NCBI GenBank assembly: GCA_013141175.1
Contig: JABFRN010000001.1
Location: 372,001-436,000 of the forward strand
DNA: 64,000 bases
Direction: 5' to 3'
Origin: Lysobacter sp.
GTDB lineage: Bacteria > Pseudomonadota > Gammaproteobacteria > Xanthomonadales > Xanthomonadaceae
Shown in pieces: positions 39,006-64,000 of the stretch. The position numbers and the translations under genes are program-made. Position 1 is the stretch's first letter. The number at the start of each line of letters is the position of its first letter. Below the pieces are notes generated by a model. That model was not told the DNA's origin and made no database searches. It saw nothing but the letters and a program-made list of their open reading frames with translations.

Positions 39006-39081
<76 letters not shown>

Positions 39082-39177
39082 GTATTTGAAAATGTGCGTC
39101 TGGAATATCGGTTTTCTGATACGTCGACGGCGAGCCGTCACCGACTCGCCTGTTCGTCACCGCTTTGAACTTCGCGG

Positions 39178-39204
39178 CGGGAGCCGCGGAACCCGCGACT
39201 CCCG
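39178..39204. other. Hairpin downstream of tuf copy 2
   Basis: CGGGAG-CGCGG and CCGCG-CTCCCG form a strong stem with a short loop 14 bases after the tuf stop. There is no T-tract on the minus strand, so it may be a processing or stabilising structure between tuf and the tRNA-Trp gene rather than a full terminator. Confidence 0.5.
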
Positions 39205-39218
39205 AACGAAGCGTTGGA

Positions 39219-40409
39219 TCACTTGATGATCTTGGCGACGACGCCAGCGCCGACCGTACGGCCACCCTCGCGAATCGCGAAACGCAGACCTTCGTCCATC
39301 GCCACCGGGTTGATCAGGCTCACCACCATCTTCACGTTGTCGCCAGGCATCACCATCTCCACGCCTTCCGGAAGCTCGCAAGCACCCGTGATGTCGGTCG
39401 TGCGGAAGTAGAACTGCGGACGGTAACCCTTGAAGAACGGCGTATGACGGCCACCCTCGTCCTTCGACAGCACATACACCTCGGCCTCGAAGTCCGTGTG
39501 CGGCTTGATCGAACCGGGCTTGCACAGCACCTGGCCACGCTCCACGTCGTCGCGCTTCGTGCCGCGCAGCAACAGACCCGCGTTGTCGCCCGCCTGGCCC
39601 TGATCCAGCAGCTTGCGGAACATCTCCACGCCCGTCACCGTCGTCTTCTGCGTCGGACGAATACCCACGATCTCGATTTCGTCGCCCACCTTCACGATGC
39701 CGCGCTCGATACGACCCGTCACCACCGTGCCGCGACCCGAAATCGAGAACACGTCTTCCACCGGCATCAGGAACGCCTTGTCGATGTCGCGCTCCGGCTG
39801 CGGAATCCACGTGTCCAGCGCTTCCACCAGCTTCAGGATCGACGGAACGCCAATCTCGCTCTGGTCGCCTTCCAGCGCCGAACGCGCCGAACCGGTCACG
39901 ATCGGGGTGTCGTCGCCCGGAAACTCGTACTTGCTCAGCAGCTCGCGCACTTCCATCTCGACCAGCTCAAGCAGCTCCGCGTCGTCCACCAGGTCCGCCT
40001 TGTTCAGGTAGACGATGATGTACGGCACACCGACCTGACGGGCCAGCAGAATGTGCTCGCGCGTCTGCGGCATCGGACCGTCCGCCGCCGAACACACCAG
40101 GATCGCGCCGTCCATCTGCGCCGCACCCGTGATCATGTTCTTCACGTAGTCCGCATGGCCCGGGCAATCCACGTGCGCGTAGTGACGGTTCGGGCTCTCG
40201 TATTCCACGTGCGCCGTCGAAATCGTGATCCCGCGCGCCTTCTCTTCCGGCGCCGCGTCGATCTGGTCGTATGCCTTGAACTCGCCACCGAAACGTTCCG
40301 CGCCGATCTTCGTCAGCGCCGCCGTCAGCGTCGTCTTGCCGTGGTCAACGTGACCGATCGTGCCCACGTTCACGTGCGGCTTGGTGCGCTCGAACTTACC
40401 CTTTGCCAT
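39219..40409 (-). CDS. tuf: Elongation factor Tu (copy 2)
   Basis: A 396-residue EF-Tu, equal in length to copy 1 and with the same G motifs. It is embedded in the tRNA-Tyr-Gly-Thr - tuf - tRNA-Trp cluster (tufB position). It differs from copy 1 at Gln270, Gln272, Ala277 and Leu279, encoded by a 32-base block (39572-39603), plus a silent base at 40230; the rest appears identical. That pattern fits gene conversion with one block escaping. Confidence 0.98.
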
Positions 40410-40467
40410 GGCTGCTTCTCTGTATGAACTGAAGTGGAGAACTGGATTGGAACGACGACTTGCAGGG

Positions 40468-40543
40468 TGGTGCTCACGAAAGGAATCGAACCTTCGACCT
40501 CCTCCTTACCAAGGAGGTGCTCTACCGACTGAGCTACGTGAGC
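40468..40543 (-). tRNA. tRNA-Thr (GGT)
   Basis: A 76-base cloverleaf on the minus strand with acceptor GCTCACG / CGTGAGC, encoded CCA, anticodon loop TTGGTAA (anticodon GGT) and T-arm AAGGTTCGATTCCTT. It lies 58 bases before tuf copy 2. Confidence 0.97.
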
Positions 40544-40588
40544 AACGATGTGATCCGCCGAACGGGATGTCCTCAGGTACTGCCGCAA

Positions 40589-40662
40589 TGGAGCGGGAGA
40601 CGGGAATCGAACCCGCACCATCAGCTTGGAAGGCTGAGGTTCTACCGTTGAACTACTCCCGC
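40589..40662 (-). tRNA. tRNA-Gly (TCC)
   Basis: A 74-base cloverleaf on the minus strand with acceptor GCGGGAG / CTCCCGC, encoded CCA, anticodon loop CTTCCAA (anticodon TCC) and T-arm GCGGGTTCGATTCCCGT. It lies between tRNA-Tyr and tRNA-Thr. Confidence 0.97.
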
Positions 40663-40704
40663 GTCTTGCGGAACGGAACGCGACCTGAAGATATCGATCC
40701 AAGA

Positions 40705-40790
40705 TGGTGGAGGGAGGTGGATTCGAACCACCGAAGGCGTAAGCCAGCAGATTTACAGTCTGCCCCCGTTGGCCGCTTGGGTATCCCTCC
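40705..40790 (-). tRNA. tRNA-Tyr (GTA)
   Basis: An 86-base class II tRNA on the minus strand with acceptor GGAGGGA / TCCCTCC, encoded CCA, anticodon loop CTGTAAA (anticodon GTA), a long variable arm (TGGCTTACGCC) and T-arm GGTGGTTCGAATCCACC. It is the first gene of the tRNA-tuf cluster. Confidence 0.97.
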
Positions 40791-40822
40791 AGTCGAAATC
40801 AACTGGTCAACGATCCGGTAAA

Positions 40823-40828
40823 ACTATA
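40823..40828 (-). promoter_or_regulatory. Candidate -10 of the tRNA-Tyr/Gly/Thr-tuf operon
   Basis: TATAGT on the minus strand, about 32 bases before the mature tRNA-Tyr 5' end. A TTGCGG box lies 15 bases upstream of it, a short spacing, so only the -10 is well supported. Confidence 0.5.
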
Positions 40829-40913
40829 CAAGGTGAAAACAGCCCGCAATTCTGACGGCACTCGGTTTTACTGTCAACGTTTGCGACCGCCTTCCGACGG
40901 AACCCCTGCTGAT

Positions 40914-42884
40914 TCAGGGGGCCGGGGCGACGGGTAGCGGCAACGGATCTTCGGCGTAGATGGCGATATGCGGCACGCCATCGGCATCGATCCAGCCGCG
41001 GAACATGCCCTCGGTGTTGAATGGAAAGCCGATCCGGCCGTCGGCACCGATCACGATAGCGCCACCATCGCCGCCCAGCGCAGGCACATCGACGTTGATC
41101 ACGGCATGACCCGCTTCGGCCGGGCCCTCGTTCAGGTAGCGCATACGGGCGCAGACCTCGTGGGCAGCTGCGGAGCGGATGTAGAACTCGCCCCACCCGG
41201 TGCCGGAAAAGGCGCAGCGGTCGTCGGCCCATGTGCCTGCGCCGATGATCGGCGAATCCCCGACCCGTCCGTACCGCTTGTCGGTCATGCCACCGGTGGA
41301 GGTGCCAGCGGCAAGTCCGCCATGGCCGTCCAGGGCTACCGCACCGACCGTACCGGTGTAGCGGCGGCCGGGGCGGCCGTCATCGATGGCGCCCTGCTGC
41401 TTTTCGCGAAGCCGGCGCTGGAGTTGCTGCCAGCGCTTTTCGGTCCGGAACCACGATGGATCGACCAGTTCGATGCCCTGCTCCGCCGCGAACACTTCGG
41501 CACCGTCGCCGACCATCATCACGTGCTCGGAGCGCTCCATGATCGCCCGGGCGAGCAGGATCGGGTTCTTGACCCGATGCAGGCCGGCCGCCGCACCGGC
41601 TTTCCGGGTCCTGCCGTCCATGATCGAGGTATCCAGCTCGTTGCGGCCGTCGTGGGTGAATACCGCGCCGCGGCCCGCGTTGAAATGCGGGTCGTCCTCC
41701 AGCACGGTGATCGCTGCGGTGACCGCATCGACGGCGGACTTGCCCGCCTTCAGCTCGGCGTGGCCGCGGCGCAGCGCCATTTCCAGCGCGGCGCGGGCAT
41801 CGCGCTCATCATCCGGCGTCATGTCGCGGCGCTCGACACCCGCACCGCCGTGGATCGCGAGCATCATCGGCGCAACCTCCTGCAGGCGGCCATTGTCCAC
41901 CCGATACGTGCGCTGGAACACCGGCGCCTCCACACGCCCTTCCGGCAGATGGACCACCGAGCCCGCGCCGATGCCGGTGACGTCGACCCGGCGCAATCCG
42001 AGCGGCTTGCCTGTGGCCTGCTTGTCCGGGAAACCGCCGCGCACCAGCCAGGCACCGCCGGCAGGGTCGGTGGCGTAGATCCGGCTGCTACCGTCGGCTT
42101 CGACCGCCAGTGCCGCGCTTTCGTCGACGCCCAACCCGATCAGCGGACGCATGGGCGTGCCGGTCAGGGTTTCAGCCTTGGCGACAAAGGCGAACAGGCG
42201 GCCGAGGCGGTCGCGCTCCTTGAAATGGGTGTCGGTGACGATGCCCTTCAGCCGGTCGACATGCAGAAAATCCTGCTCGATGGTGACTGCGGCCCCCAGC
42301 GGATCGGCCAACGCCTCCGGGCTGCGGATGCTGCCGTCGTCCATTGCGCCGTAGAGATATTCACCCAGGATGGCCAGCCCGGCACTGGTGCCGCCGATCG
42401 GCTTGCCGGCGCGGAGATGGGCATCGAGCGCCACAGCGACGGGCGTTCCCTTCCAGAAGCGGACGTAACGTGCCTGATCGCCGCCGGCGATGAAGATGCC
42501 ATCGGCCTTGGCAAGGCTGGCAAGGATTTTCGGATCGTTGGAGGACCCTGGCCCGCTGAACACGAAGGTTTCGACCGACGCGATTCCGCCGACATCGCGG
42601 TAGAACTCTTCGGCGACCTCATTGCCTTGCGAGGCCCGCAGCACGACCAGGTGGCCATTGCCCGCTTTCTTCAGGAACCAGCGCAGGGCATCGAAATTGC
42701 GATCGCCGCCGCCCATCAGCAGCAGACCGGGGCTGACCTGGCCCGGCGTGGGTGCATCCGGATTGCCGATGATGTAGCGCTTGTGGTCGCGGGCCGTCGC
42801 CGGAAAGACGACGGCGGCCAGCAGCGACATCAGCAATACGAGCGTGAACGGACGGAGCCCGCGCCGGGCAACGGGGTGTTTCAT
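40914..42884 (-). CDS. Secreted fusion of cyanophycinase-like S51 peptidase and isoaspartyl peptidase/L-asparaginase
   Basis: A 656-residue protein with a signal peptide (about 1-31, RPFTLVLLMSLLAAVVFPAT). Residues 50-335 match the S51 cyanophycinase family: GGDQ at 134-137, nucleophile Ser167 in GGTSAGLAILG, catalytic His220 in VTDTHFKERDRLGRL, then LGVDESAALAV. Residues 340-656 match the Ntn-hydrolase isoaspartyl peptidase IaaA: IHGGAG, NAGRGAVFT, the autocleavage site YTGTVGAVALDG with Thr512 as the new N-terminal nucleophile, and GGMTDKRYGRVGDSPIIGAG. Cyanophycinase cuts cyanophycin to beta-Asp-Arg dipeptides and IaaA-type enzymes split isoaspartyl dipeptides, so the fusion joins consecutive steps. 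A GAGGAG ribosome site precedes the ATG. Divergent from a sigma/anti-sigma/TonB receptor module. The true substrate is inferred. Confidence 0.9.
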   Translation of the reverse strand: MKHPVARRGLRPFTLVLLMSLLAAVVFPATARDHKRYIIGNPDAPTPGQVSPGLLLMGGGDRNFDALRWFLKKAGNGHLVVLRASQGNEVAEEFYRDVGGIASVETFVFSGPGSSNDPKILASLAKADGIFIAGGDQARYVRFWKGTPVAVALDAHLRAGKPIGGTSAGLAILGEYLYGAMDDGSIRSPEALADPLGAAVTIEQDFLHVDRLKGIVTDTHFKERDRLGRLFAFVAKAETLTGTPMRPLIGLGVDESAALAVEADGSSRIYATDPAGGAWLVRGGFPDKQATGKPLGLRRVDVTGIGAGSVVHLPEGRVEAPVFQRTYRVDNGRLQEVAPMMLAIHGGAGVERRDMTPDDERDARAALEMALRRGHAELKAGKSAVDAVTAAITVLEDDPHFNAGRGAVFTHDGRNELDTSIMDGRTRKAGAAAGLHRVKNPILLARAIMERSEHVMMVGDGAEVFAAEQGIELVDPSWFRTEKRWQQLQRRLREKQQGAIDDGRPGRRYTGTVGAVALDGHGGLAAGTSTGGMTDKRYGRVGDSPIIGAGTWADDRCAFSGTGWGEFYIRSAAAHEVCARMRYLNEGPAEAGHAVINVDVPALGGDGGAIVIGADGRIGFPFNTEGMFRGWIDADGVPHIAIYAEDPLPLPVAPAP

Positions 42885-43027
42885 GCGGTTTTTCTCCTCG
42901 AAAACAGGGCGGGCGGCAAACCGGTCGCGCCGGGCGCAGCATTGGAAGGGTAGACGAATGGGCGGCCGACTTCCCTACACGACCACATCCGCCGGACGAT
43001 CGCGCTGCGATCCGCTATGGTTCAGGG

Positions 43028-43633
43028 ATGCGCAACCCGCTCGACGATTGGTTCGTCCGTGAAATCCTCATCCACGAGGAGGCTTTGACGCGCTATCTGC
43101 AGCGCTGCTGGCCGCATCGGGACGATCTCCACGACCTGCGCCAGGAGGTCTATATCCGGGTGTATGAAGCCGCATCGGGCACCCTGCCGAACTCTCCGAA
43201 AGCCTTCCTGTTCACCAGCGCCCGCAATCTGATCACCGACCGCCTGCGCCGCAGCCGGGTGGTATCGATCGAGACGATGGGTGATCTGGAGCCCTTGAAC
43301 GTCTTGGTGGATGAGGTGTCACCGGAACGCAGGTTCGGCGGGCGCCAGGCACTGCGGCGGCTCAGCGAGGCCTTCGATCGCCTGCCCGACCGCTGCCGGC
43401 AGGTGATGTGGCTGCGGCGGGTCGAGGAGTTGCCGCAGAAAGTCGTGGCTTTACAACTGGGCATCAGCGAGAAAACCGTGGAAAAGCATGTCGCCAATGG
43501 CATCCGCCTGATCGCCGATCACTACTACGGCGGCGCGCACGCGTCGACGGGCACCGACAGCGCAGCCGCTCCGGCCAGACGAGGGCGTCACCACGGACAC
43601 GGACATGAACAAGACCGGCAACAAACGGATTGA
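43028..43633 (+). CDS. ECF RNA polymerase sigma factor (FecI-like)
   Basis: A 201-residue sigma-70 family protein. Region 2 spans about 20-80 ([40 protein letters not shown]), and region 4 with its helix-turn-helix spans about 110-170 (LSEAFDRLPDRCRQVMWLRR, ALQLGISEKTVEKHVANGI). The tail is low-complexity (Ala/Arg/His-rich). It overlaps the FecR-like gene by 29 bases and precedes a TonB receptor with an STN domain: the classic FecI-FecR-FecA arrangement for cell-surface signalling. A TATGGT box lies 7 bases before the start codon. Confidence 0.93.
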   Translation: MRNPLDDWFVREILIHEEALTRYLQRCWPHRDDLHDLRQEVYIRVYEAASGTLPNSPKAFLFTSARNLITDRLRRSRVVSIETMGDLEPLNVLVDEVSPERRFGGRQALRRLSEAFDRLPDRCRQVMWLRRVEELPQKVVALQLGISEKTVEKHVANGIRLIADHYYGGAHASTGTDSAAAPARRGRHHGHGHEQDRQQTD

Positions 43634-44699
43634 GCTGGCGGCGTCGGAATGGCTGGCGCGTCGCGAAAGCGACGATTGGTCGGACAACGACCGCGCCGGA
43701 CTCGATGCCTGGCTGGCCGAATCCACCGCACATCGCGTGGCGTTCCTGCGATTGGAGTCGGCGTGGATCGAGAGCGCGCGTCTCAAAGCCTTGGCGGCCG
43801 GCCGGACGGGTGCCGGACCACCGCCACGCGGGCCCTGGGTGCAGCCGCCGCACATCACCGCGGAAGCGCCAGTGGCGGATGAGGCCGCCGGAGCATCGCG
43901 AGTCGAAGCGCTTGGCGCCCTGAGGTTCGCCGCCCGTGAGACCGTACCGCCACGGCGGCGTGCGCTGGTTGGCGGACTGACAGCAGCAGCGGTCGCACTG
44001 TGCGGCGTACTGGCGTACTGGGGCTGGCGCACGCACACCGCTGTCGATACCGCGTCCTACGCCAGTGGTGTCGGCACCCTGCGTACGGTGGCGCTGACCG
44101 ATGGCTCCCACGCCACGCTCAGCAGCGGCAGCCGGATCGAAGTGGCGATGTCGCGCGGCGAACGTTGGGTCGATCTGCGCAGCGGCGAGGCCTTCTTCGA
44201 GGCGGCCAAGGACCGCGCGCGTCCGTTCATCGTCAGTGCCGATGCGCGCCGGGTGGTCGCGGTGGGTACGAAATTCTCGGTGCGTCGCGATGGTGCAGAC
44301 CTGCGCGTGGTGGTGACCGAAGGCCTGGTCCGGCTGGAGTCAGCCCACATGCCGGGGCAACCGCCCGCGCCGGTCACGCTGCTGCCCGCCGGCAGTACCG
44401 CGTTGGCCACCCGCAGCGGCGTACTGGTGCGCACGGGCACCGTGGTCGACGCCGAGCGCGCGCTGGAGTGGCGCGGCGGCTATCTGCACTTCGACGACAC
44501 GCCATTGGCCGAGGCCGCGATCGAATTCAACCGCTACGGCGGGCCGAAACTGGTGATGGGCGACAGCGATGCCGCCGCCTTGCGCATCGGCGGCAATGTG
44601 CGCTGGTCGAACGTGGATGGTTTCGTGCGCCTGCTCGAACAGGGATTCGGCGTCCGTGCCGAGCAGCGCGGCGGGATCATCGTGTTGCACAGCCACTGA
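43605..44699 (+). CDS. FecR-like anti-sigma factor / signal transducer
   Basis: A 364-residue single-pass inner-membrane protein. The N-terminal cytoplasmic DUF4880-type segment (IELAASEWLARRESDDWSDN) binds the sigma factor. The membrane span lies at about 119-140 (ALVGGLTAAAVALCGVLAYW). The periplasmic FecR domain follows (TVALTDGSHATLSSGSRIEV, VGTKFSVRRDGADLRVVVTE), then a C-terminal STN-like end (FVRLLEQGFGVRAEQRGGII). It should relay occupancy of the adjacent TonB receptor to the sigma factor. Confidence 0.93.
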   Translation: MNKTGNKRIELAASEWLARRESDDWSDNDRAGLDAWLAESTAHRVAFLRLESAWIESARLKALAAGRTGAGPPPRGPWVQPPHITAEAPVADEAAGASRVEALGALRFAARETVPPRRRALVGGLTAAAVALCGVLAYWGWRTHTAVDTASYASGVGTLRTVALTDGSHATLSSGSRIEVAMSRGERWVDLRSGEAFFEAAKDRARPFIVSADARRVVAVGTKFSVRRDGADLRVVVTEGLVRLESAHMPGQPPAPVTLLPAGSTALATRSGVLVRTGTVVDAERALEWRGGYLHFDDTPLAEAAIEFNRYGGPKLVMGDSDAAALRIGGNVRWSNVDGFVRLLEQGFGVRAEQRGGIIVLHSH

Positions 44700-44813
44700 C
44701 GTGCCGTTGACGTCGCCAAGCGGCGATGCGAGTGGGGATTGCCCCGGCTCGCTCGTCTTGTTGATGTTGGGTGGCGCGCGTTTCGCGTGCCGGAAATTCA
44801 AAGGGGATACCTG

Positions 44814-47800
44814 ATGCTGAGACCGTTACGTCTGCTGTTGTTGAGCGCGGCCTGTACTGCGGCGCTGCATGCGCACGCCCAGGGGGCCTCGGACCCGGCC
44901 ACCGGTCCGATCACCGTACCGGCGGGGGAATTGCGTTCCGCGCTCGATGCCCTGGCACGACAGTCCGGCACGCAACTGGTCTACCGCTCCGATCAGATCA
45001 AGGGGCTGCGCACCCCCGGCGTGCAGGGCGCGCCTTCCGCCGATGCCGCACTGGAAGGTCTGCTGCAGGGCAGCGGGTTCGCGCCGCGTCGCGACCCGTC
45101 GTCAGGCGCGGTGGTCATCGTCAAGCGCGACCTGCCCAAGCGCGCGACTGCCGCCGCAGCACAGGATGAGCCTTCCGGCGGTGCCGTGGCGCCCCCGCCC
45201 GCGCCGCAGGAAACGCTGGAAACCATCGAAGTCACCGGTTCGCGGATTCCCCGCACGCAGGTCGAGGGCCCGGCGCCGGTCACGGTGATCAGTGCCCGCG
45301 ACATCAAGGAAGGCGGCTTCACCACGACCCCGGACGTGCTGCGCGCGATCACCCAGAACAGCGGCGAAACCCAGAGCCAGCAGTCCGCCAGCGGCGCCGA
45401 TTTCTCGCCCGGCGCCCAGCAGGTCGACCTGCGCGGCCTCGGCCCGAACCACACCCTCGTGCTGGTCAACGGCCGCCGCATCGCCGACTTCCCGATGCCG
45501 TTCAAGGGCCGCAGCAACTTCACCGATATTTCCAACATCCCGCTGGGCATGGTCGACCGGATCGAAGTGCTGACCGGCAGCGCCTCCGCCGTCTACGGCT
45601 CCGACGCCATCTCCGGCGTCGTCAATTTCATCCTGAAGAAACAGGCAGACGGGACCACCGTCGACCTGCGCTACGGCGACACCAGCCGCGGCGGCGGCGA
45701 GTCCTACAATCTCAGCGTGTCCTCCGGCATCGAACGCGGCAACTTCAACGCGGTGTTCGGCGCCGAAGTGCAGATCCAGCGCCCGCTGTGGGCCTACGAC
45801 CGCAACATCCAGGATTCCACCCTCGACGGCCCCACCGAGCGTTCGCGTATTGCGCGCCGCGCATTCCTGCGCACCGACTATTACGACACCTATCTCGATC
45901 CGGGCGCCGACACCTGCGCCGGCCTCGCCGACCTCAACCGCGGCTCGACGATCTACGCGTCGCGCCCCGGTTTCGGCGACTACGACCCGGATCTCGACGA
46001 CTACGGCCCGGGCTACTACTGCGGCAGCACCGAGTCGATCGGCTACGGCACCGTGATCAGCGAGCGCAAGGGCATCAACGCCTACGGCACGTTCAACTAC
46101 CAGATGGACAACGGCATGTCGTGGTTCGCCGACGTGCAGTTGGGCTATCACAAGCTCGGCCTGTTCCGCGACGTGACGGCGTGGAGCTACCAGGCGCCCG
46201 ACGGCAACGAGGACGGCTATTTCTTCAACCAGGCCACCGACCAGATCGAATACTGGCAGCGCCAGTTCAGCCCGGAGGAAATGGGCGGCCTGGGCAGCGG
46301 CATGATCCGCAACACCCAGAAGACCTTCAGCGTGACCAGTGGATTCGCCGGCAACTTCGGACAGGACTGGGATTACGAAGCGGCACTCAGCCATTCGCAG
46401 TACAAGGCCACCATCGGCTGGCCGCAGATCGTGGCGGCGCGCGCCAACGCGCTGTTTCTCGGGCCGCAGTTGGGCGTGGACGCCGACGGCTTCCCGATCT
46501 TCAACGCCGACCCGGACCGACTCTACACGCCGCTGACCCGCGCCGAATACGACTCGATCGCCGCGCGCACCACGTATCACCCGCAGTCGCGCACCGATAC
46601 CCTGTCGTTCACCTTGAACAACACGGATCTGTTCTCACTGCCGGCCGGCCCGGTGGGCTTCGCGGGCGTGGTCGAATTCGGCAACCAGTCCTACGACCTC
46701 AACCCCGATCCGCTGGCGACCCAGTACTACTACTACAGCTGGAAGGATTCCGACGGCCACGGCAGCCGCAACCGCTGGGCTTTGGCCGGCGAGTTGCGTG
46801 CGCCGCTGCACGAGACCGTGAATCTCAGCGTCGCCGGCCGTTACGACCAGTACCGTTATTCCGGCAGCAACCCCGGCAAACTCACCTACAGCGCCGGCCT
46901 TGAATGGCGTCCGCTGGAATCGCTGCTGGTGCGCGGTTCGTACGGCACCGCGTTCCGCGCTGCGGATCTGCACTATGTCTACGCGGGCCTGGGCAACGAT
47001 GAGACTTCGGGTATCGACTACTACACCTGTCTCAGCGACGACCCGGGCGCCAGCGACTGCTCCGACTACGAGGAAGGCCTGATCCGCACCCGCGAAGGCA
47101 ACCGCGATCTCGATCCCGAGACCAGCAAGTCGTGGACGGCAGGCTTCGTGTGGTCGCCGACGACCAACTTCGATGTGTCGCTGGACTACTTCGACATCCG
47201 CATGCGCGACCAGGTGCAGGACATGAGCGTGGCCGAGATCCTGCGCGACGAGGCCAGCTGCCGGTTGGGCGATCTCGACCCCGCCTCGCCGACCTGCGTT
47301 GATGCGCTTGCGCGGATCACCCGGATCGACGACCGGCTGTACGGCATCTTCGTCAACCCGATCAACGTCGCCCGCGAGAACACCAGCGGCGTCGACATGA
47401 GCGCGCACTACAAACTGGACACGCGGTTCGGCGATTTCCGCTTCGGCGCCAACCACAGCTGGGTGCGCGAGCACGACTTCCAGCAGTACGACGGCGACCC
47501 GGTGGAAGATCAGTTCGCGGTGAACGGCGGCTTCGATATCCCGCGCACCAAGACCAGCGCGAACCTGGGCTGGAGCCTCGACCGCTGGTCGGCCAGCCTG
47601 CAGGGCACGCGCCTGGGCAAGCTGCCGAACTCCGACTCCTACGACCAGGTCTACGACCCTGCGGACGGCGGCAGCCCGTGGATCGGCGCGACCTGGCGCT
47701 ACAACCTCGCGGCCGGCTACCGTTTCAACGATGCGATGCAAGTGTCGCTGGCGGTCAACAATCTGTTCGACAAGATGCCACCGAAGGATCCGACCTACAC

Positions 47801-47894
47801 CGCCTATCCGTACTACGACACCTCGTGGTTCGATTCGGTCGGTCGCAGCGTGTACGTGAACTTCACCTACAAGTTCGGCGGCGACACCCCGTAA
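44814..47894 (+). CDS. TonB-dependent receptor with N-terminal STN signalling domain
   Basis: A 1026-residue outer-membrane receptor. Signal peptide about 1-23; STN (secretin/TonB short N-terminus) domain at about 38-104 (AGELRSALDALARQSGTQLV, YRSDQIKGL), which contacts FecR-type regulators. A TonB-box-like ETLETIEVTGSR follows at 133-144, then the plug (APVTVISARDIKEGGF, VLVNGRRIADFPM, IEVLTGSASAVYGSDAISG) and a 22-strand barrel rich in aromatic residues to the C-terminus (SVYVNFTYKF plus five residues). The start at 44814 has GGGG 7 bases before it. The ligand is unknown; the divergent cyanophycinase fusion suggests a peptide-type substrate. Confidence 0.93.
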   Translation: MLRPLRLLLLSAACTAALHAHAQGASDPATGPITVPAGELRSALDALARQSGTQLVYRSDQIKGLRTPGVQGAPSADAALEGLLQGSGFAPRRDPSSGAVVIVKRDLPKRATAAAAQDEPSGGAVAPPPAPQETLETIEVTGSRIPRTQVEGPAPVTVISARDIKEGGFTTTPDVLRAITQNSGETQSQQSASGADFSPGAQQVDLRGLGPNHTLVLVNGRRIADFPMPFKGRSNFTDISNIPLGMVDRIEVLTGSASAVYGSDAISGVVNFILKKQADGTTVDLRYGDTSRGGGESYNLSVSSGIERGNFNAVFGAEVQIQRPLWAYDRNIQDSTLDGPTERSRIARRAFLRTDYYDTYLDPGADTCAGLADLNRGSTIYASRPGFGDYDPDLDDYGPGYYCGSTESIGYGTVISERKGINAYGTFNYQMDNGMSWFADVQLGYHKLGLFRDVTAWSYQAPDGNEDGYFFNQATDQIEYWQRQFSPEEMGGLGSGMIRNTQKTFSVTSGFAGNFGQDWDYEAALSHSQYKATIGWPQIVAARANALFLGPQLGVDADGFPIFNADPDRLYTPLTRAEYDSIAARTTYHPQSRTDTLSFTLNNTDLFSLPAGPVGFAGVVEFGNQSYDLNPDPLATQYYYYSWKDSDGHGSRNRWALAGELRAPLHETVNLSVAGRYDQYRYSGSNPGKLTYSAGLEWRPLESLLVRGSYGTAFRAADLHYVYAGLGNDETSGIDYYTCLSDDPGASDCSDYEEGLIRTREGNRDLDPETSKSWTAGFVWSPTTNFDVSLDYFDIRMRDQVQDMSVAEILRDEASCRLGDLDPASPTCVDALARITRIDDRLYGIFVNPINVARENTSGVDMSAHYKLDTRFGDFRFGANHSWVREHDFQQYDGDPVEDQFAVNGGFDIPRTKTSANLGWSLDRWSASLQGTRLGKLPNSDSYDQVYDPADGGSPWIGATWRYNLAAGYRFNDAMQVSLAVNNLFDKMPPKDPTYTAYPYYDTSWFDSVGRSVYVNFTYKFGGDTP

Positions 47895-47919
47895 CCCACG
47901 ACGCGCATCCGGATGCGCG

Positions 47920-47951
47920 AAGGCCCTCCCGTCGCCGGGAGGGCCTTTGTG
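47920..47951. terminator. Rho-independent terminator between TonB receptor gene and ychF
   Basis: A perfect 12-base-pair stem (AAGGCCCTCCCG / CGGGAGGGCCTT) with a 4-base loop is followed by TGTGTTTT on the plus strand. It serves the receptor gene and possibly the convergent ychF transcript. Confidence 0.85.
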
Positions 47952-47987
47952 TTTTCAGACGTGCGACGGCTGCGATGTGGTTGAAGA

Positions 47988-49079
47988 TCAGACGTTGAAG
48001 CGGAAGTGCAGCACGTCGCCTTCCTGCACGCGGTATTCCTTGCCTTCCAGACGCAGACGGCCGGCGTCGCGCGCACCGGATTCGCCGCGATACTTGAGGA
48101 AGTCGTCGTAGGCGATGGTTTCGGCGCGGATGAAGCCCTTCTCGAAATCGGTATGGATCACCGCTGCCGCCTGCGGCGCGGTCGAGCCGGCCTTGACCGT
48201 CCAAGCCCGCACTTCCTTGACCCCGGCGGTGAAGTACGTCTGCAGGCCCAACAGCTTGTAAGCGGCGCGGATCACCCGGTTCAGACCCGGCTCGTCCAGA
48301 CCGAGGTCGGCCAGGAACGTGTCGCGGTCGTCATCCTCGAGCTGGCTGAGCTCTTCCTCGATGGCCGCCGACACCGGCACCACTTCGGCGCCCTCGGTCA
48401 CTGCGCGGGCGCGCACGGCGTCCAGATGCGCGTTGTTCTCGAAGCCATCCTCCAGCACGTTGGCCACGTACATGACCGGCTTGAGCGTGAGCAGGAACAG
48501 ATCGCGAACCGCCAGCTTGTCGTCGTCGGACAAGCCCAGCGCGCGCGCCGGCGTGCCCGCATCCAGCCCGGCGCGAACCCGGCCCAACACCTCGGCACGG
48601 GCCTTGGCGTCCTTGTCGCCGGTCTTCGCGGCGCGTTCGGCGCGCTGAAAGGCTTTTTCGACCGATTCCAGGTCGGCCAGCGCCAGTTCGGTATCGATGG
48701 TTTCGATATCGGCGATCGGATCGACCTTGTTGTTGACGTGGATGACGTCCGGGTTTTCGAAGCAGCGGACCACGTGGGTGATCGCGTCCACTTCACGGAT
48801 ATGGGCGAGGAATTTGTTGCCCAGGCCCTCGCCGCTGGCCGCACCGGCCACCAGGCCGGCGATGTCGACGAACTCGACCGCCGTCGGAATGCACTTCTGC
48901 GGTTTGACGATCTCGGCCAGCGCATTCAGGCGCGGATCCGGCACCGGCACCACGCCGACGTTCGGCTCGATCGTGCAGAACGGAAAGTTGGCCGCAGCGA
49001 TACCCGCCTTGGTCAATGCGTTGAAGAGAGTCGATTTGCCGACGTTCGGCAGACCGACGATGCCGCATTTGATGCCCAT
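47988..49079 (-). CDS. ychF: Redox-regulated ATPase YchF (OLA1 family)
   Basis: A 363-residue Obg-type P-loop protein that prefers ATP and associates with ribosomes. It starts [20 protein letters not shown], with Walker [29 protein letters not shown], a coiled-coil insertion and a C-terminal TGS domain ([20 protein letters not shown] to HFRFNV). The start has AGGAAA 5 bases before it. It is last in the prs-rplY-pth-ychF group and is separated from pth by heptamer repeats. Confidence 0.97.
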
Positions 49080-49088
49080 TGTGTTTCC

Positions 49089-49152
49089 TGTCAAAGGTCA
49101 AAGGTCAAAGGTCAAAAGATCTGGATTGATCTTTGACGTTTGACGTTTGACG
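49089..49152. repeat. GTCAAAG heptamer repeats with inverted TTTGACG repeats
   Basis: Four copies of GTCAAAG (49090-49117, the last with an extra A) are followed after ATCTGGATTGAT by three copies of TTTGACG (49132-49152). The two arrays are inverted and can form a hairpin (GTCAAAAGATC / GATCTTTGAC). They fill the 75-base gap between pth and ychF. Confidence 0.9.
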
Positions 49153-59554: not shown

Positions 59555-59958
59555 TGAACATGTCCATCGGCACCACTTTGCGATTGCTCACCAAGGCCAC
59601 CGGCCTGACCGTGACCGACCTCGCCACCGCCATCCCGCGCGCGGGCGTCAACACCGTCAGCGCATGGCTGAAGGACGAGAAGCTGCCCGGCCGCGACCAG
59701 ATCGACGCGCTCGCCCGCACCTTCGGCGTGCCGGCAGGCGCGCTGCTGTCGGAACTCGCCAGCACCTTCGATCCCGCGCGCACCAAGGGCGAACACGAAC
59801 TGCTGGCCTCGTATCGCGCGCTCAACAGCAAGCAGCAAGGCGCGCTGCTGGAAGTCGCCCGCAGCATGGCCGCTGGCGTGCCCGATGATGAAGAAGCACC
59901 CGCTCGTCCTTCGCGCAAACGCGCATCCGCGAAACGCAGCCGCAAGGTGAGCGCATGA
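59554..59958 (+). CDS. XRE-type helix-turn-helix protein
   Basis: A 134-residue protein with a lambda-repressor-like helix-turn-helix at about 17-66 ([37 protein letters not shown]) and a basic Ala/Arg/Lys tail ([16 protein letters not shown]). An ATG two codons later could also be the start. It overlaps moaB by one base and ppk2 by four, so it is probably co-translated with them. Its target is unknown. Confidence 0.8.
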
Positions 59959-60731
59959 GCAAGCTCAAGCGCAAGGAATACGAGGAACTGCTGGAGCCGA
60001 TGCAGCGTGAGCTCGCACAGATGGCGCGCTGGGCAGCGCACAGCGGGCAACGCATCCTCGTCATCATCGAAGGCCGCGACACCGCCGGCAAAGGCGGCGT
60101 GATCGATGCGATCAGCGCGCACATCAACCCGCGCCAGAGTCGCATCGTCGCCCTGCCCAAGCCGAACGACCGCGAACGCACCCAGTGGTATTTCCAGCGC
60201 TACATGCCGCATCTGCCCGCCGCTGGCGAACTCGTGCTGTTCGACCGCAGCTGGTACAACCGCGCCGGCGTCGAGAAGGTCATGGGCTTCGCCGACGACA
60301 AACAGGTGAAGGCCTTCCTCAAGCAGGCGCCGATCTTCGAACAGATGCTGGTCGACGACGGCATCCTGCTGTTCAAGTACTGGTTGTGCTGCGACCAGGA
60401 AGAACAGGAAAAGCGTTTCGCCGAACGCCGCGAAGACCCGCTCAAGGGCTGGAAGCTGTCGCCGATCGATCTGGAAGCCCGCACGAAATACGGCGAGTAC
60501 ACCAAAGCGCGCGAGGCGATGCTCAAGGCCACGCATACCAAACATGCGCCGTGGACGCTGGTGGATTTCAACGACCAGAAAATCGGCAGACTGACCTTGA
60601 TCCGCGACCTACTGGATCGTTTGCCGGATACCGAAACCAAGACCGAACCGCTTGAGTTTCTGCCGCTGGAAGGGAAGCTGCAGAAGGAAAAGTATTCGGT
60701 GGTGGAGCCGTTGGATGCCTTCGAGACGTAG
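59955..60731 (+). CDS. ppk2: Polyphosphate kinase 2
   Basis: PPK2 transfers phosphate between polyphosphate and nucleoside diphosphates. The 258-residue class I-type protein has the Walker A loop [37 protein letters not shown], Walker [18 protein letters not shown] and the [20 protein letters not shown] helix. It overlaps the HTH gene by four bases (ATGA). Confidence 0.95.
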
Positions 60732-60745
60732 CCCCCAAGGTCTTT

Positions 60746-60768
60746 GTAGGGCGGGCCTTGCACCCGCC
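60746..60768. repeat. Single GTAGGGCGGGCC-type palindrome
   Basis: GTAGGGCGGGCCTTGCACCC plus GCC folds on itself (GGCGGG... / ...CCCGCC type) and resembles the pair between rpsL and rpsG. It lies 14 bases after ppk2, before the A+T-richer segment. The gap to 60906 shows nothing else. Confidence 0.75.
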
Positions 60769-60906
60769 GATCGGCGAACAACGACTTCCTCACCGAGAGT
60801 GTCGTAAATGTCGATAGTGTGGCTGATGCGAAGCCGATTGTCTTATTCGATAGGCGGATACAAGATCCACCTTACGGGTTGATCTTTGAGGCTCTGTTAT
60901 TTTCAT

Positions 60907-63663
60907 CTATGGCTTGAATGAAAGTTCGTGCTGGGGATGCTCCCAAGACTCCTCGTTCTTGAACAAGACCAAGTGTTCTCTGCTCCACAGCAATTCTTGC
61001 TTCGGAATTGGCTGATTGATGGCGGAGAGCACCCTTACACCGAAAATATTGGAAGCGCTCGTGCCCTTGGCTTTCTCAAAGACTGATCCCTCCCTTTCTT
61101 GGTAAGCATCGCCCTCGCTCACACTTCTGGTTCTTTTTTGCGAGCTGGTTTTCCTTCTTTCCAGATAGGGGTCGATCTCGAAAGTGAAATCCGTCTTTTG
61201 GATCAACGCATGCCGCAAGGGCTCGGATCGCTTGTCGTCAAGCCGGTAACTTTCTTCACCTCCCCCTTGCATCAAGAAGGTCGTATGTGTGCTGATCACC
61301 GTAACTGCGCGCGCGCGCAAAGCAGCGAAAAATTGCGCCCAGAACAATGTGTATGCCTCGATCTCAGGGAATTGTAGATATATATTGTGCAGTCCATCGA
61401 TCACCACACAACTGTAGGGCACTCCTTGAAGCTCTGCAGCATCGAGCTCCCATTCGACCCTGTTGAACAATTGATCGGCACGATAATTCCCGGGATACAA
61501 GTGAACGACTTTGATTTCCGGGCGTAGTTGGTGTTTCTTTATTCCATATTCTCGCCACCTGACTTCAAGCAACTTACTCAGTACGTTCCGATAATATCCA
61601 CTCGGATAAAGAAACGAAATCACAAGGATTCTTTCTGGCCGATCAATACGGCGCCCAACATGGGTAAACAAGTCGCCACTTCGCAAACGCGACGGTTTGC
61701 CTGTTAGTTCAAACGAAGGCGATATTGCGATTTTGAGGGCAAGCGCAGCTTTTCCACCCGAACCCTCTCCGTTTAGGAAAATATTCGCGCCACTGAACAG
61801 GATCGGGGCATCCTCCTGCTGCTCGAACCCGCGATTCTGTTCGAAAGTGCTATACCTAGAGACGTAGATCTGCTCGTAGGAATACCGCGAAAGAGCAATC
61901 CCCATGGACGTTTTGCCAGCCCTCATGTCTGGAAGCGGCGTTTTCCACAACGCCTTGTGATCGAGCTGATAATTGATTTGCGGGGAGAAGCGGACCCCTT
62001 TGACGCCGGAAATCTGCAAACCATGAGCGCCGGCCGCGCATAGTTGGTGCCTAGCCTTCGAAATCGTGATCATCCTGTCGGGCTTACGCCCATATACGTC
62101 AACATTTTCAAGGCTCAACCTAATGGCCACATCTACCAGATAATCGAGCGCGGGCTGACCTTCCCAGTCCTCACCCGTCGTAATGATGACCAACGCCTTG
62201 GATTTTCGATACAGCGCGATTGCGCTACGCATCGCTTGGGCGAGCGGATGTTTTTCGTTATAGTCACTCGCCGACATAATCAAGTCGTGCACGCCATCAA
62301 GGACGATGATGGCGCGGCAGGTTTTGGGAATTCCATCGAGATCGATACCAGCGCTTTCATGCTGAGAAGCGAGCGCTTTGGTGATCGTTTCGAACGTCTC
62401 ACTGACAGCATCCATATATCGATGACGGCCCTTTTTCTGGTCCTCGTCATCATCCAAGCGCTGTAGGTATAACCAATCCTCGCTTGGCGAGAAAGACAAT
62501 TGCCGGATCTCGCTGGTGAGCAGCATCTTGGCTTTTTCCCTGAGATCGCGCTCGCCTTCTTCCGCTGTGATGAAGAGGGTCTTGACCCCGAAAGGCGCCA
62601 GCAAAGCGCCGAGCGAAAGCGCGACCGTGGTCTTACCCGTACCCGGGCCACCATGCAGAGCGACCACCAGACCACCCTCAGCAGAAAACTTTAGACCACC
62701 GCGGAACAGTGTATCGGCGCCGCGTATTGGGATTGGGAGGCCCCATAAAGCATTGACGATTTCGCCGAGTTCGGGCAATCGCTCCAATGCGGGAGGTAAC
62801 GAGAAGCGATAAGGATCACCATTTCCTAAAGTCAGACCGTCACCGGCCTGCGACGGTACGCATGCGTTTGAAAGGAAGGACTCGGCGTCCGTGCGATTGT
62901 CGAAAGCCTGCCATAGCAGCCCTTGTGCCGACAGGAAGTGATTCAGCACGTCTTCGGCAGCGGAACGCGCCGCGAACGAACGCAACTGGACCGCATCGGA
63001 TACACCGCGCACACGCAACGCCGCCTGGATATTGAAATGCGCACGTTCAATATCGGAAACCTCGAAAGATTGCCAATCGCCTTCGTGCGATGACGAATTG
63101 TTCGGAACGACACCGAAGGTCTCGAAAAGAAAATTCCTCAATGTTAGTAAGGCGTACGCCCGCGACCCCGGCATCTCCGGTATGGTCAGAAAATTGAAGG
63201 CCACACTCAAAGGCGAACGAATGCAGAACTCCGGCGCAGGCTTCTTCTCAACCGATGCGTCCCACATGCGGCCAAGGGCAGCTATATCGTCGAAAAGCGC
63301 CAATGAATGCTTGACGAGCTGAGAAATGCGTGTCGGCTTGTCTTGAACCCATTCAATAGGCTCCAGCGGCAATGCGCCTCGGTCATTCATCGCTTGGCGG
63401 ATATCTTCAGGCAGCGCTTGTAGATCGTAAAGCGCATCCGTACGCAGAGAGTGCGCGTCGTCCAATGTCTTGAACAAGTGGCTATTGATACCATCGGGAT
63501 AGACGGCGCACAACCAACTAAAATGACGATTGATTAGCGCATCCAATAGCAAAGCATCCGACACACCACCCGACACCGTACGTATGACTTCAGCCTGTGC
63601 TCGCATCACAGACTGCACGAGTGGACTGAAGACTTCGCCGTAGGGAGTGGGTGAACCATCCAT
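60907..63663 (-). CDS. Large protein with two KaiC/RecA-like ATPase domains
   Basis: About 918 residues; ATG at 63663 chosen because AAGG lies 9 bases upstream, with ATG 63669 and TTG 63672 also possible. Residues 1-300 form a helical region of unknown fold. The first KaiC-like domain (about 305-560) has Walker A GGPGTGKTT (338-346), a KaiC-type glutamate pair TAEEGERDLREKAKML (Glu368, Glu369) and Walker B AIIVLDG (Asp456). The second domain (about 610-840) has a weakened P-loop GEGSGGKAA and Walker B VVIDG (Asp756). The region is more A+T-rich than its neighbours. The gene upstream ends 13 bases before it, suggesting an operon. Function unknown; a conflict or defence role is only an inference. 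Confidence 0.8.
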   Translation of the reverse strand: MDGSPTPYGEVFSPLVQSVMRAQAEVIRTVSGGVSDALLLDALINRHFSWLCAVYPDGINSHLFKTLDDAHSLRTDALYDLQALPEDIRQAMNDRGALPLEPIEWVQDKPTRISQLVKHSLALFDDIAALGRMWDASVEKKPAPEFCIRSPLSVAFNFLTIPEMPGSRAYALLTLRNFLFETFGVVPNNSSSHEGDWQSFEVSDIERAHFNIQAALRVRGVSDAVQLRSFAARSAAEDVLNHFLSAQGLLWQAFDNRTDAESFLSNACVPSQAGDGLTLGNGDPYRFSLPPALERLPELGEIVNALWGLPIPIRGADTLFRGGLKFSAEGGLVVALHGGPGTGKTTVALSLGALLAPFGVKTLFITAEEGERDLREKAKMLLTSEIRQLSFSPSEDWLYLQRLDDDEDQKKGRHRYMDAVSETFETITKALASQHESAGIDLDGIPKTCRAIIVLDGVHDLIMSASDYNEKHPLAQAMRSAIALYRKSKALVIITTGEDWEGQPALDYLVDVAIRLSLENVDVYGRKPDRMITISKARHQLCAAGAHGLQISGVKGVRFSPQINYQLDHKALWKTPLPDMRAGKTSMGIALSRYSYEQIYVSRYSTFEQNRGFEQQEDAPILFSGANIFLNGEGSGGKAALALKIAISPSFELTGKPSRLRSGDLFTHVGRRIDRPERILVISFLYPSGYYRNVLSKLLEVRWREYGIKKHQLRPEIKVVHLYPGNYRADQLFNRVEWELDAAELQGVPYSCVVIDGLHNIYLQFPEIEAYTLFWAQFFAALRARAVTVISTHTTFLMQGGGEESYRLDDKRSEPLRHALIQKTDFTFEIDPYLERRKTSSQKRTRSVSEGDAYQEREGSVFEKAKGTSASNIFGVRVLSAINQPIPKQELLWSREHLVLFKNEESWEHPQHELSFKP

Positions 63664-63685
63664 GGTCATCAACCTTAATCTGAAA

Positions 63686-64000
63686 TTATGCGGTCAGCTT
63701 CGTTCTACGAGTATCGGAGACAGATATAGGCCGAATCACTGGATCGTAGTTTCTTGAAGACTGAGCAATTTGCAGGCCGTAACTCACTTGACCCCGCCGG
63801 GCAGAAACATTCACCATCATTGGCCCAAGTGTATGGGAATTGTGCTCAGCGACGTTACTTGTGGTCGCAAGCATGAATCCACGCTCGGCAAGGAAAGTTT
63901 CTGCGGGAACTACCATGTAAATCGTTTCATTTGCTGCCGCTACGAAACCAGCCAACCGACCCGAATCAGTCATGACGGGAGCACCGATGCATTTTTTGAT
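63686..64000 (-). CDS. Partial gene, C-terminal part of a possible trypsin-fold peptidase
   Basis: The frame is open at the right edge: 104 visible residues starting IKKCIGAPVMTDSGRLAGFV, continuing AANETIYMVVPAETFLAERG and ending SDTRRTKLTA. The G-x-P-V...G-x-L-x-G-F pattern followed by VVPAETFL resembles the last strands of chymotrypsin-fold peptidases (GxSGxPV...GxVxG...). The usual serine position would be Ile here, so it may be inactive or a different fold. The true start is outside the window; an internal ATG at 63973 is not taken as the start. It lies 22 bases before the KaiC-like gene. Confidence 0.5.
   Translation of the reverse strand: MKKCIGAPVMTDSGRLAGFVAAANETIYMVVPAETFLAERGFMLATTSNVAEHNSHTLGPMMVNVSARRGQVSYGLQIAQSSRNYDPVIRPISVSDTRRTKLTA

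Follow-up and report, generated by a model that had tools for sequence, protein, structure and literature searches.

A predicted exported fusion of a cyanophycinase-like S51 domain and an isoaspartyl peptidase beside a divergent sigma-FecR-TonB receptor gene set in Lysobacter

Cyanophycin is a polymer in which cyanobacteria and other microbes store nitrogen. In a 64,000-nucleotide stretch of a Lysobacter sp. genome (GenBank assembly GCA_013141175.1, contig JABFRN010000001.1, positions 372,001 to 436,000 of the forward strand), which we call the window, one open reading frame (ORF) on the reverse strand, at 40914-42884, encodes a 656-residue protein that joins an S51 cyanophycinase-like domain to an Ntn isoaspartyl peptidase behind a signal-like N-terminus. 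The assignment draws on the ORF itself, Pfam, NCBIfam and relatives. The frame consists of 656 codons and a stop, has no internal stops, and contains Pfam matches to Peptidase_S51 and then Asparaginase_2, both above their cut-offs. The original prediction, made from the letters of the DNA, had proposed this architecture on one chain and had named a domain search, a structure prediction and a survey of the fusion's frequency as checks. Its observation of a two-domain single frame is confirmed by the domain search, and the positions it gave for GGDQ (134-137), GGTSAG (164-169, with Ser167), His220 and Gly511-Thr512 are right.

The fused frame is found well beyond this genome. Our locus counts rest on the best 80 named of 450 relatives found, and fused cases are over-represented among them as a consequence of that choice. 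Both halves lie in one frame at 76 of the 80 loci and in separate adjacent genes at the other four (L094, L095, L098 and L099). Both Pfam domains also occur in one frame in a Novosphingobium plasmid copy and at L111, from a distant member of the phylum. The ratio of nonsynonymous to synonymous substitution rates (dN/dS), taken against three relatives, is 0.08-0.21 in the S51 half and 0.06-0.15 in the Ntn half, and both halves are under purifying selection. Because 76 of the 80 relatives are fused in one frame and dN/dS is low in both halves (0.06-0.21 overall), chance and assembly error are ruled out, as is a sequencing error that falsely joined two genes.

The Ntn half spans residues 341-645 (41864 to 40950, reverse strand; PF01112). 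The Asparaginase_2 match covers residues 341-643 and positions 2-309 of the 309-position profile (E 3.2e-104; 348.8 bits against a cut-off of 27); on PRK10226, the beta-aspartyl-peptidase equivalog, the score is 304.3 bits, below the curated cut-off of 567. The top solved fold for a model of the full-length protein is the E. coli IaaA precursor 2zak, with 48% identity in the structural alignment and a template modelling (TM) score of 0.95 by target. Thr512 (codon 41349..41351, reverse strand), which follows Gly511, is the predicted autocleavage site and nucleophile, and the beta chains of solved relatives start at the residue aligned with it. We take the Gly-Thr bond to be the scissile one, with Thr as nucleophile, and Arg540 and Asp543 to be substrate-binding residues. 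Gly511, Thr512, N402, T530, R540, D543, T562 and G563 are invariant in all 77 rows of the single alignment from which our active-site counts come. By these features the half is predicted to be a complete isoaspartyl peptidase, as originally proposed, and E. coli IaaA is a close relative; the catalytic residues of both domains are present and conserved.

The S51 half spans residues 33-338 (41871..42788, reverse strand; PF03575), assigned from Pfam, an AlphaFold2 model and the nearest solved folds. The Peptidase_S51 match itself covers residues 119-188 (E 4.9e-9; 36.6 bits against a cut-off of 23.9). In the alignment to the cyanophycinase CphB (3en0), Ser167 (codon 42384..42386) corresponds to the nucleophile Ser132, His220 (codon 42225..42227), within DTHFKERDRLGRL, to His174, and Glu255 (codon 42120..42122) to Glu201, all on the reverse strand. 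The three are kept in 76, 76 and 77 of the 77 rows, and the single deviating row at Ser167 and His220 is L101. That locus (L101:7001-8857, Pseudoxanthomonas sp. NC8) appears to run out of frame over the S51 active site and to return to frame further on; a sequencing error and decay are indistinguishable here. Gln137, Asp218 and Arg224 are conserved in 77, 76 and 76 rows. We take the substrate pocket of CphB to consist of Gln101, Asp172, Gln173, Arg178, Arg180 and Arg183; five of these six residues are retained in the S51 half, and two of the five, those aligned with Arg180 and Arg183, also occur in the dipeptidase PepE. The motifs GG(D/N)Q, GTSAG, D-x-HF-x2-R-x-R-x2-RL and GxDE are common to the S51 half, the CphB encoded elsewhere in the same genome, and three annotated CphBs from cphA operons.

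Conservation at these positions bears on whether the S51 domain is catalytic at all. It is very improbable that it serves in binding or oligomerisation with little or no catalysis, which would leave the protein in effect an exported isoaspartyl peptidase. The somewhat faster change of the S51 half in the three dN/dS comparisons and the out-of-frame stretch of L101 would fit such a role; it is opposed by the retention of triad and pocket in 76 of the 77 rows, with distant members from Sphingomonas and Asticcacaulis among them.

Structure prediction, one of the checks named at the outset, places the S51 half with cyanophycinases. Its AlphaFold2 model has a mean predicted local distance difference test (pLDDT) score of 92.2 and a predicted TM score (pTM) of 0.91. 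The nine best Foldseek matches are chains of CphB or pseudo-CphB (E 1e-18 to 2e-15; TM 0.72-0.79 by target), the closest solved folds being the cyanophycinases 7uqw and 3en0 at E about 1e-18. Next come an S51 peptidase from an actinobacterium, at 5e-10, and chains of dipeptidase E, at 3e-8 or weaker. In PepE, for which two sequences from the four PepE loci were compared, Gln137, Asp218 and Arg224 give way to Thr, Asn and Glu, respectively, and GWSAG replaces GTSAG. A PepE-like dipeptidase is therefore disfavoured by the fold and by the three replaced pocket positions, despite the common triad and two Arg residues of the motif.

The signal-peptide-like N-terminus occupies residues 1-31 (42792..42884, reverse strand). 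A short basic stretch is followed by a hydrophobic core of 13 residues (15-27; mean hydropathy 3.0) and by ATA at 29-31. The export-like signal that had been proposed is thus found, as judged by eye and hydropathy rather than with a dedicated predictor. The N-terminus contains no cysteine and therefore no lipobox. The CphB of the same genome has no comparable hydrophobic stretch near its start (maximum hydropathy 1.4), and both products of each of the four two-gene loci have signal-like N-termini. Judging from these features, the fusion protein is predicted to be exported, with the periplasm as its most likely location. A resistance peptidase of the MccG type, also of family S51, was considered and set aside, since MccG is intracellular in the relevant passage of PMC9239234 whereas the fusion looks exported.

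Divergent from the fusion gene lies a set of three genes that the original prediction did not include. A 143-bp intergenic region (42885..43027) separates the fusion from a gene for an extracytoplasmic function (ECF)-type RNA polymerase sigma factor (43028..43633, forward strand; Pfam Sigma70_r2 and Sigma70_r4_2; TIGR02937 80.9 bits against a cut-off of 42.9). It is followed on the same strand by a FecR-like regulator gene (43605..44699; FecR E 9.8e-18, DUF4880 E 1.4e-8) and a TonB-dependent receptor gene (44739..47894; barrel E 9e-39, Plug E 8e-22), which is listed from a TTG and whose likely start, chosen by eye, is the ATG at 44814. ECF sigma factor and FecR genes alongside a TonB receptor gene are the arrangement of FecI-FecR-type cell-surface signalling. 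Catabolism of lasso peptides or other isopeptides, a further candidate function considered for the locus, is likewise linked to loci with TonB, FecI and FecR.

The trio is a conserved feature. Counted as tblastn matches at E <= 1e-8, some of them partial at contig ends, divergent sigma factor, FecR and TonB receptor genes are present at 60 of the 80 loci (56 fused, 4 separate). Three more loci have sigma factor and FecR matches only, with a contig end near, and 11 have a divergent TonB receptor match without sigma factor or FecR, including Sphingomonas and Asticcacaulis; at one of the 11, L044, the match is a receptor fragment of 38 residues. A Novosphingobium locus (L127) has a divergent TonB receptor gene too. 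At L070, L073, L074, L076 and L077, from Steroidobacteraceae-type metagenome-assembled genomes (MAGs), the fusion occurs with no TonB, sigma factor or FecR matches in 7 kb of upstream sequence, and downstream of L070 lie purL-like and histidine ammonia-lyase-like genes (names given by eye).

In the window, the region 39006-49094 has the fusion locus between tRNA genes with a tuf-like and a ychF-like gene, also named by eye. Elsewhere in the window, the block 60001-64000 has a G+C content of 0.54, compared with 0.61-0.68 in the other 4-kb blocks; an ORF of 921 residues there matches KaiC/AAA-type ATPases and adjoins a PPK2 gene at 59955-60731.

Fused relatives include Lysobacter, Pseudoxanthomonas, Xanthomonas, Luteimonas, Thermomonas, Arenimonas, Dokdonella and Vulcaniibacterium, as well as Steroidobacteraceae MAGs, Asticcacaulis and Sphingomonas. 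The fusion query also aligned over more than 90% of its length with two plasmid records of Novosphingobium, and one of these was checked with Pfam. Among 148 genomes of relatives, 19 (the Lysobacter genome itself included) carry the fusion, in all 19 as one frame, and at least nine further genomes have the two genes side by side. The window's genus has the fusion in 6 of 11 genomes, and two of the five genomes without it are less than 90% complete. In a phylum-wide sample, with up to three candidates scored per genome, the fusion was found in 3 of 398 genomes. This survey of its frequency qualifies the original description of the architecture as unusual, which holds for the phylum at large and fails among the relatives, where the fusion is common. 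The ychF-like and tuf-like flanks of the window recur at three split loci (L095, L098, L099) and at five fused ones (L022, L034, L035, L064, L066). The same flanking genes at fused and split loci indicate that the two forms interchange at one chromosomal site.

A second cyanophycin locus, overlooked in the original prediction, is present in the same genome (L110:4443-11368; C1 3670442-3677367). There iadA, cphB and cphA1 lie adjacent, with a cphA-like gene, and score above their curated cut-offs (CphA1 1113 bits, CphB 251.8 bits on TIGR02069, IadA 388 bits). The gene content of the genome suggests that the cell can both synthesise cyanophycin and break it down in the cytoplasm; there would then seem to be two routes, one serving the internal store and the other exported. 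The fusion is read as serving a polymer from outside because the genome's own CphB lies in a separate cluster and lacks a signal-like N-terminus. A search of the genome with the whole fusion at E <= 0.001 returned only the fusion itself and CphB, and therefore no second IaaA-type gene at that threshold. CphA1 is present in 52 of the 148 genomes of relatives, 10 of the 19 with the fusion and 42 of the 129 others; of the nine fused genomes without CphA1, two are only 75% and 86% complete.

The biochemistry of known enzymes connects the two domains. Cyanophycinase yields beta-Asp-Arg, which IaaA can cleave (passages of PMC10206079), in agreement with the original proposal that the two domains act in consecutive steps. 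With moderate confidence, we interpret the fusion as an exported two-enzyme protein whose locus is inducible and serves the TonB-dependent use of cyanophycin or of a beta-aspartyl polymer closely related to it. Soluble polymer or oligomers set free by cell lysis would bind to the outer-membrane receptor, and the receptor's signal, relayed by FecR and the ECF sigma factor, would increase expression; the oligomers would pass into the periplasm. There the S51 domain, with Ser167, His220 and Glu255, would trim beta-Asp-X dipeptides off the chain end, and the Ntn domain, after cleaving itself before Thr512, would split these into Asp and X, X being Arg if the polymer is cyanophycin. The cell would then take up the freed amino acids. 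Fusion would place both activities in one compartment at a fixed ratio.

Several observations weigh against this interpretation. The S51 half scores 81.6 bits on the cyanophycinase model TIGR02069, below the curated cut-off of 126.6, and shares 22-23% identity with solved cyanophycinases in structural alignments. The Gln173 of CphB is replaced by Thr or Ser in the clade of exported S51 proteins. The two PepE sequences have the triad together with residues aligned with Arg226 and Arg229, and the solved pseudo-CphB of Pseudobacteroides (7uqv) has the same three Arg of the motif. The Ser-His-Glu triad is thus non-discriminating, since PepE also has one, and the Arg motif is no proof of a cyanophycin substrate, since pseudo-CphB has all three Arg and PepE two of them. 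The model of the full-length protein is moderately confident (pLDDT 83.2, pTM 0.67), with low-confidence stretches at 179-182, 500-505 and 537-539 and at both ends. The match of the receptor to the signalling domain STN is weak (24.3 bits, below the cut-off of 28.4). None of the trio was detected in the available flank of 6 of the 76 fused loci, five of which have 7 kb of upstream sequence, and no inner-membrane transporter was seen among the neighbours inspected, the wider surroundings not having been screened. An association of the fusion with the cell's own synthetase is not significant (p 0.12), and such a link was rejected. Cyanophycin is poorly soluble at neutral pH, which is awkward for TonB-dependent uptake of long chains.

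The trees count against it as well. On the S51 tree, for which the program warns of long-branch effects, the exported proteins, fused and split alike, form one group, which a long branch separates from the CphB of this genome and the three operon CphBs. Fused and split forms are more intermixed on the IaaA tree. The fused label needs two changes on the former and five on the latter, so the trees disagree in part and a single clean origin of the fusion is unsupported. Both are quick trees with long branches, made from tblastn-bounded stretches. The set A2 has 57 rows: one from the window, those of the four separate loci, and those of 52 fused loci out of the 75 that remain once L101 is set aside. 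L101 was omitted from both trees as well, as were L003-L019 and L021, duplicates of named loci, and L002 and L102. The proposed cyanophycinase-like core has the triad, five of six pocket residues and cyanophycinases as its nearest folds; the score under the TIGR02069 cut-off, the separate clade and the replaced Gln173 qualify it.

Two other substrates have to be weighed in this light. It is fairly unlikely that the protein handles isoaspartyl peptides from damaged proteins or peptide debris, both domains having broad specificity, S51 as an exported aspartyl exopeptidase and Ntn as an isoaspartyl dipeptidase. The low TIGR02069 score, the triad and two of three motif Arg in PepE, and the nine of 19 fused relatives in which CphA1 was not seen would all suit this function, as would the promiscuity of IaaA enzymes even within cyanophycin clusters (passages of PMC10206079). 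It is opposed by the conservation of Gln137, Asp218 and Arg224, which are replaced in the two PepE sequences, and by nearest solved folds that are cyanophycinases rather than PepE. Also quite unlikely as the substrate is a different beta-aspartyl polymer or natural product, one whose beta-Asp backbone carries a side residue that is not Arg and for which the TonB receptor would be the dedicated importer. The Pseudobacteroides pseudo-CphB with its Arg-rich motif, the Thr or Ser at the Gln173 position and the long branch of the exported clade are consistent with such a substrate; retention of five of the six CphB pocket residues is not. For the reading we favour, a cyanophycin-related utilisation locus, a more specific form can be put forward tentatively. 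It may be a dedicated, unnamed TonB system in which a receptor that signals at the surface imports fragments of a beta-aspartyl polymer and a self-processing periplasmic fusion converts them to two free amino acids, in hosts of which some also store cyanophycin in the cytoplasm. Its substrate may be cyanophycin, or else a relative not yet described that bears a different side residue and to which the exported S51 proteins would have become adapted.

Comparison with known systems shows where the locus is familiar and where it differs. In the group of CphB and the extracellular CphE (MEROPS S51; TIGR02069; 3en0, 7uqw), CphB was the enzyme compared, and the S51 half resembles it in triad, motifs and fold; it departs from CphB in its sub-threshold TIGR02069 score, its low identity, its Thr or Ser for Gln173, the second enzyme fused to it and the signal-like N-terminus. 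The Ntn half agrees with IaaA/EcAIII (2zak; 8dqm) in the whole domain, the Gly-Thr cleavage site and the catalytic and substrate-binding residues, and differs in having a signal-like N-terminus and an S51 domain ahead of it on the same chain. In passages of PMC10206079, genes for cyanophycinase and IaaA lie close together, often with transporters nearby; clusters of cyanophycinase and isoaspartyl dipeptidase genes in genomes lacking cphA1 are read as scavenging, and a cyanophycin utilization locus consists of a cyanophycinase, an isoaspartyl dipeptidase and a transporter (Ben Hania et al., as cited there). The Lysobacter locus holds all three kinds, conserved together, the S51 half being only cyanophycinase-like. 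The same two steps would be carried out, but by one exported polypeptide tied to the sigma-FecR-TonB trio instead of by the separate genes of those passages. The cphA-iaaA-cyanophycinase operons of Deinococcus deserti, Pelagibacterium and Mesorhizobium plasmids likewise have an IaaA-family gene adjoining a cyanophycinase gene; in them IaaA comes first, the genes are separate, a synthetase is present and identity is 25-40%. Tang et al. 2012 (PMC3400609) remarked on a TonB receptor close to a cyanophycinase gene of Citromicrobium sp. JLT1363, in a passage that mentions no isoaspartyl domain or fusion; the words 'isoaspartyl' and 'asparaginase' are absent from the main text of that paper. A passage on the Lysobacter capsici genome notes cphA-cphB (PMC4742617). 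Sharon and Schmeing 2023 (PMC10206079) use neither 'fusion' nor 'fused' in their main text. No published account of the fusion was found in the open-licence PMC literature, searched by title and abstract opening, and domain databases may list the architecture. As far as these searches go, the component parts are known, and the exported fusion with a surface-signalling receptor set is undescribed.

If the proposed reading is true, a two-enzyme pathway on one polypeptide, tied to a specific outer-membrane receptor, would extend across Xanthomonadaceae-type bacteria and some alphaproteobacteria. A substrate would be assigned to a sigma-FecR-TonB receptor set for which, to our knowledge, none is known. 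The single enzyme may be useful for converting cyanophycin to arginine and aspartate, and the locus would suggest, in testable form, how Gram-negative bacteria can harvest cyanophycin.

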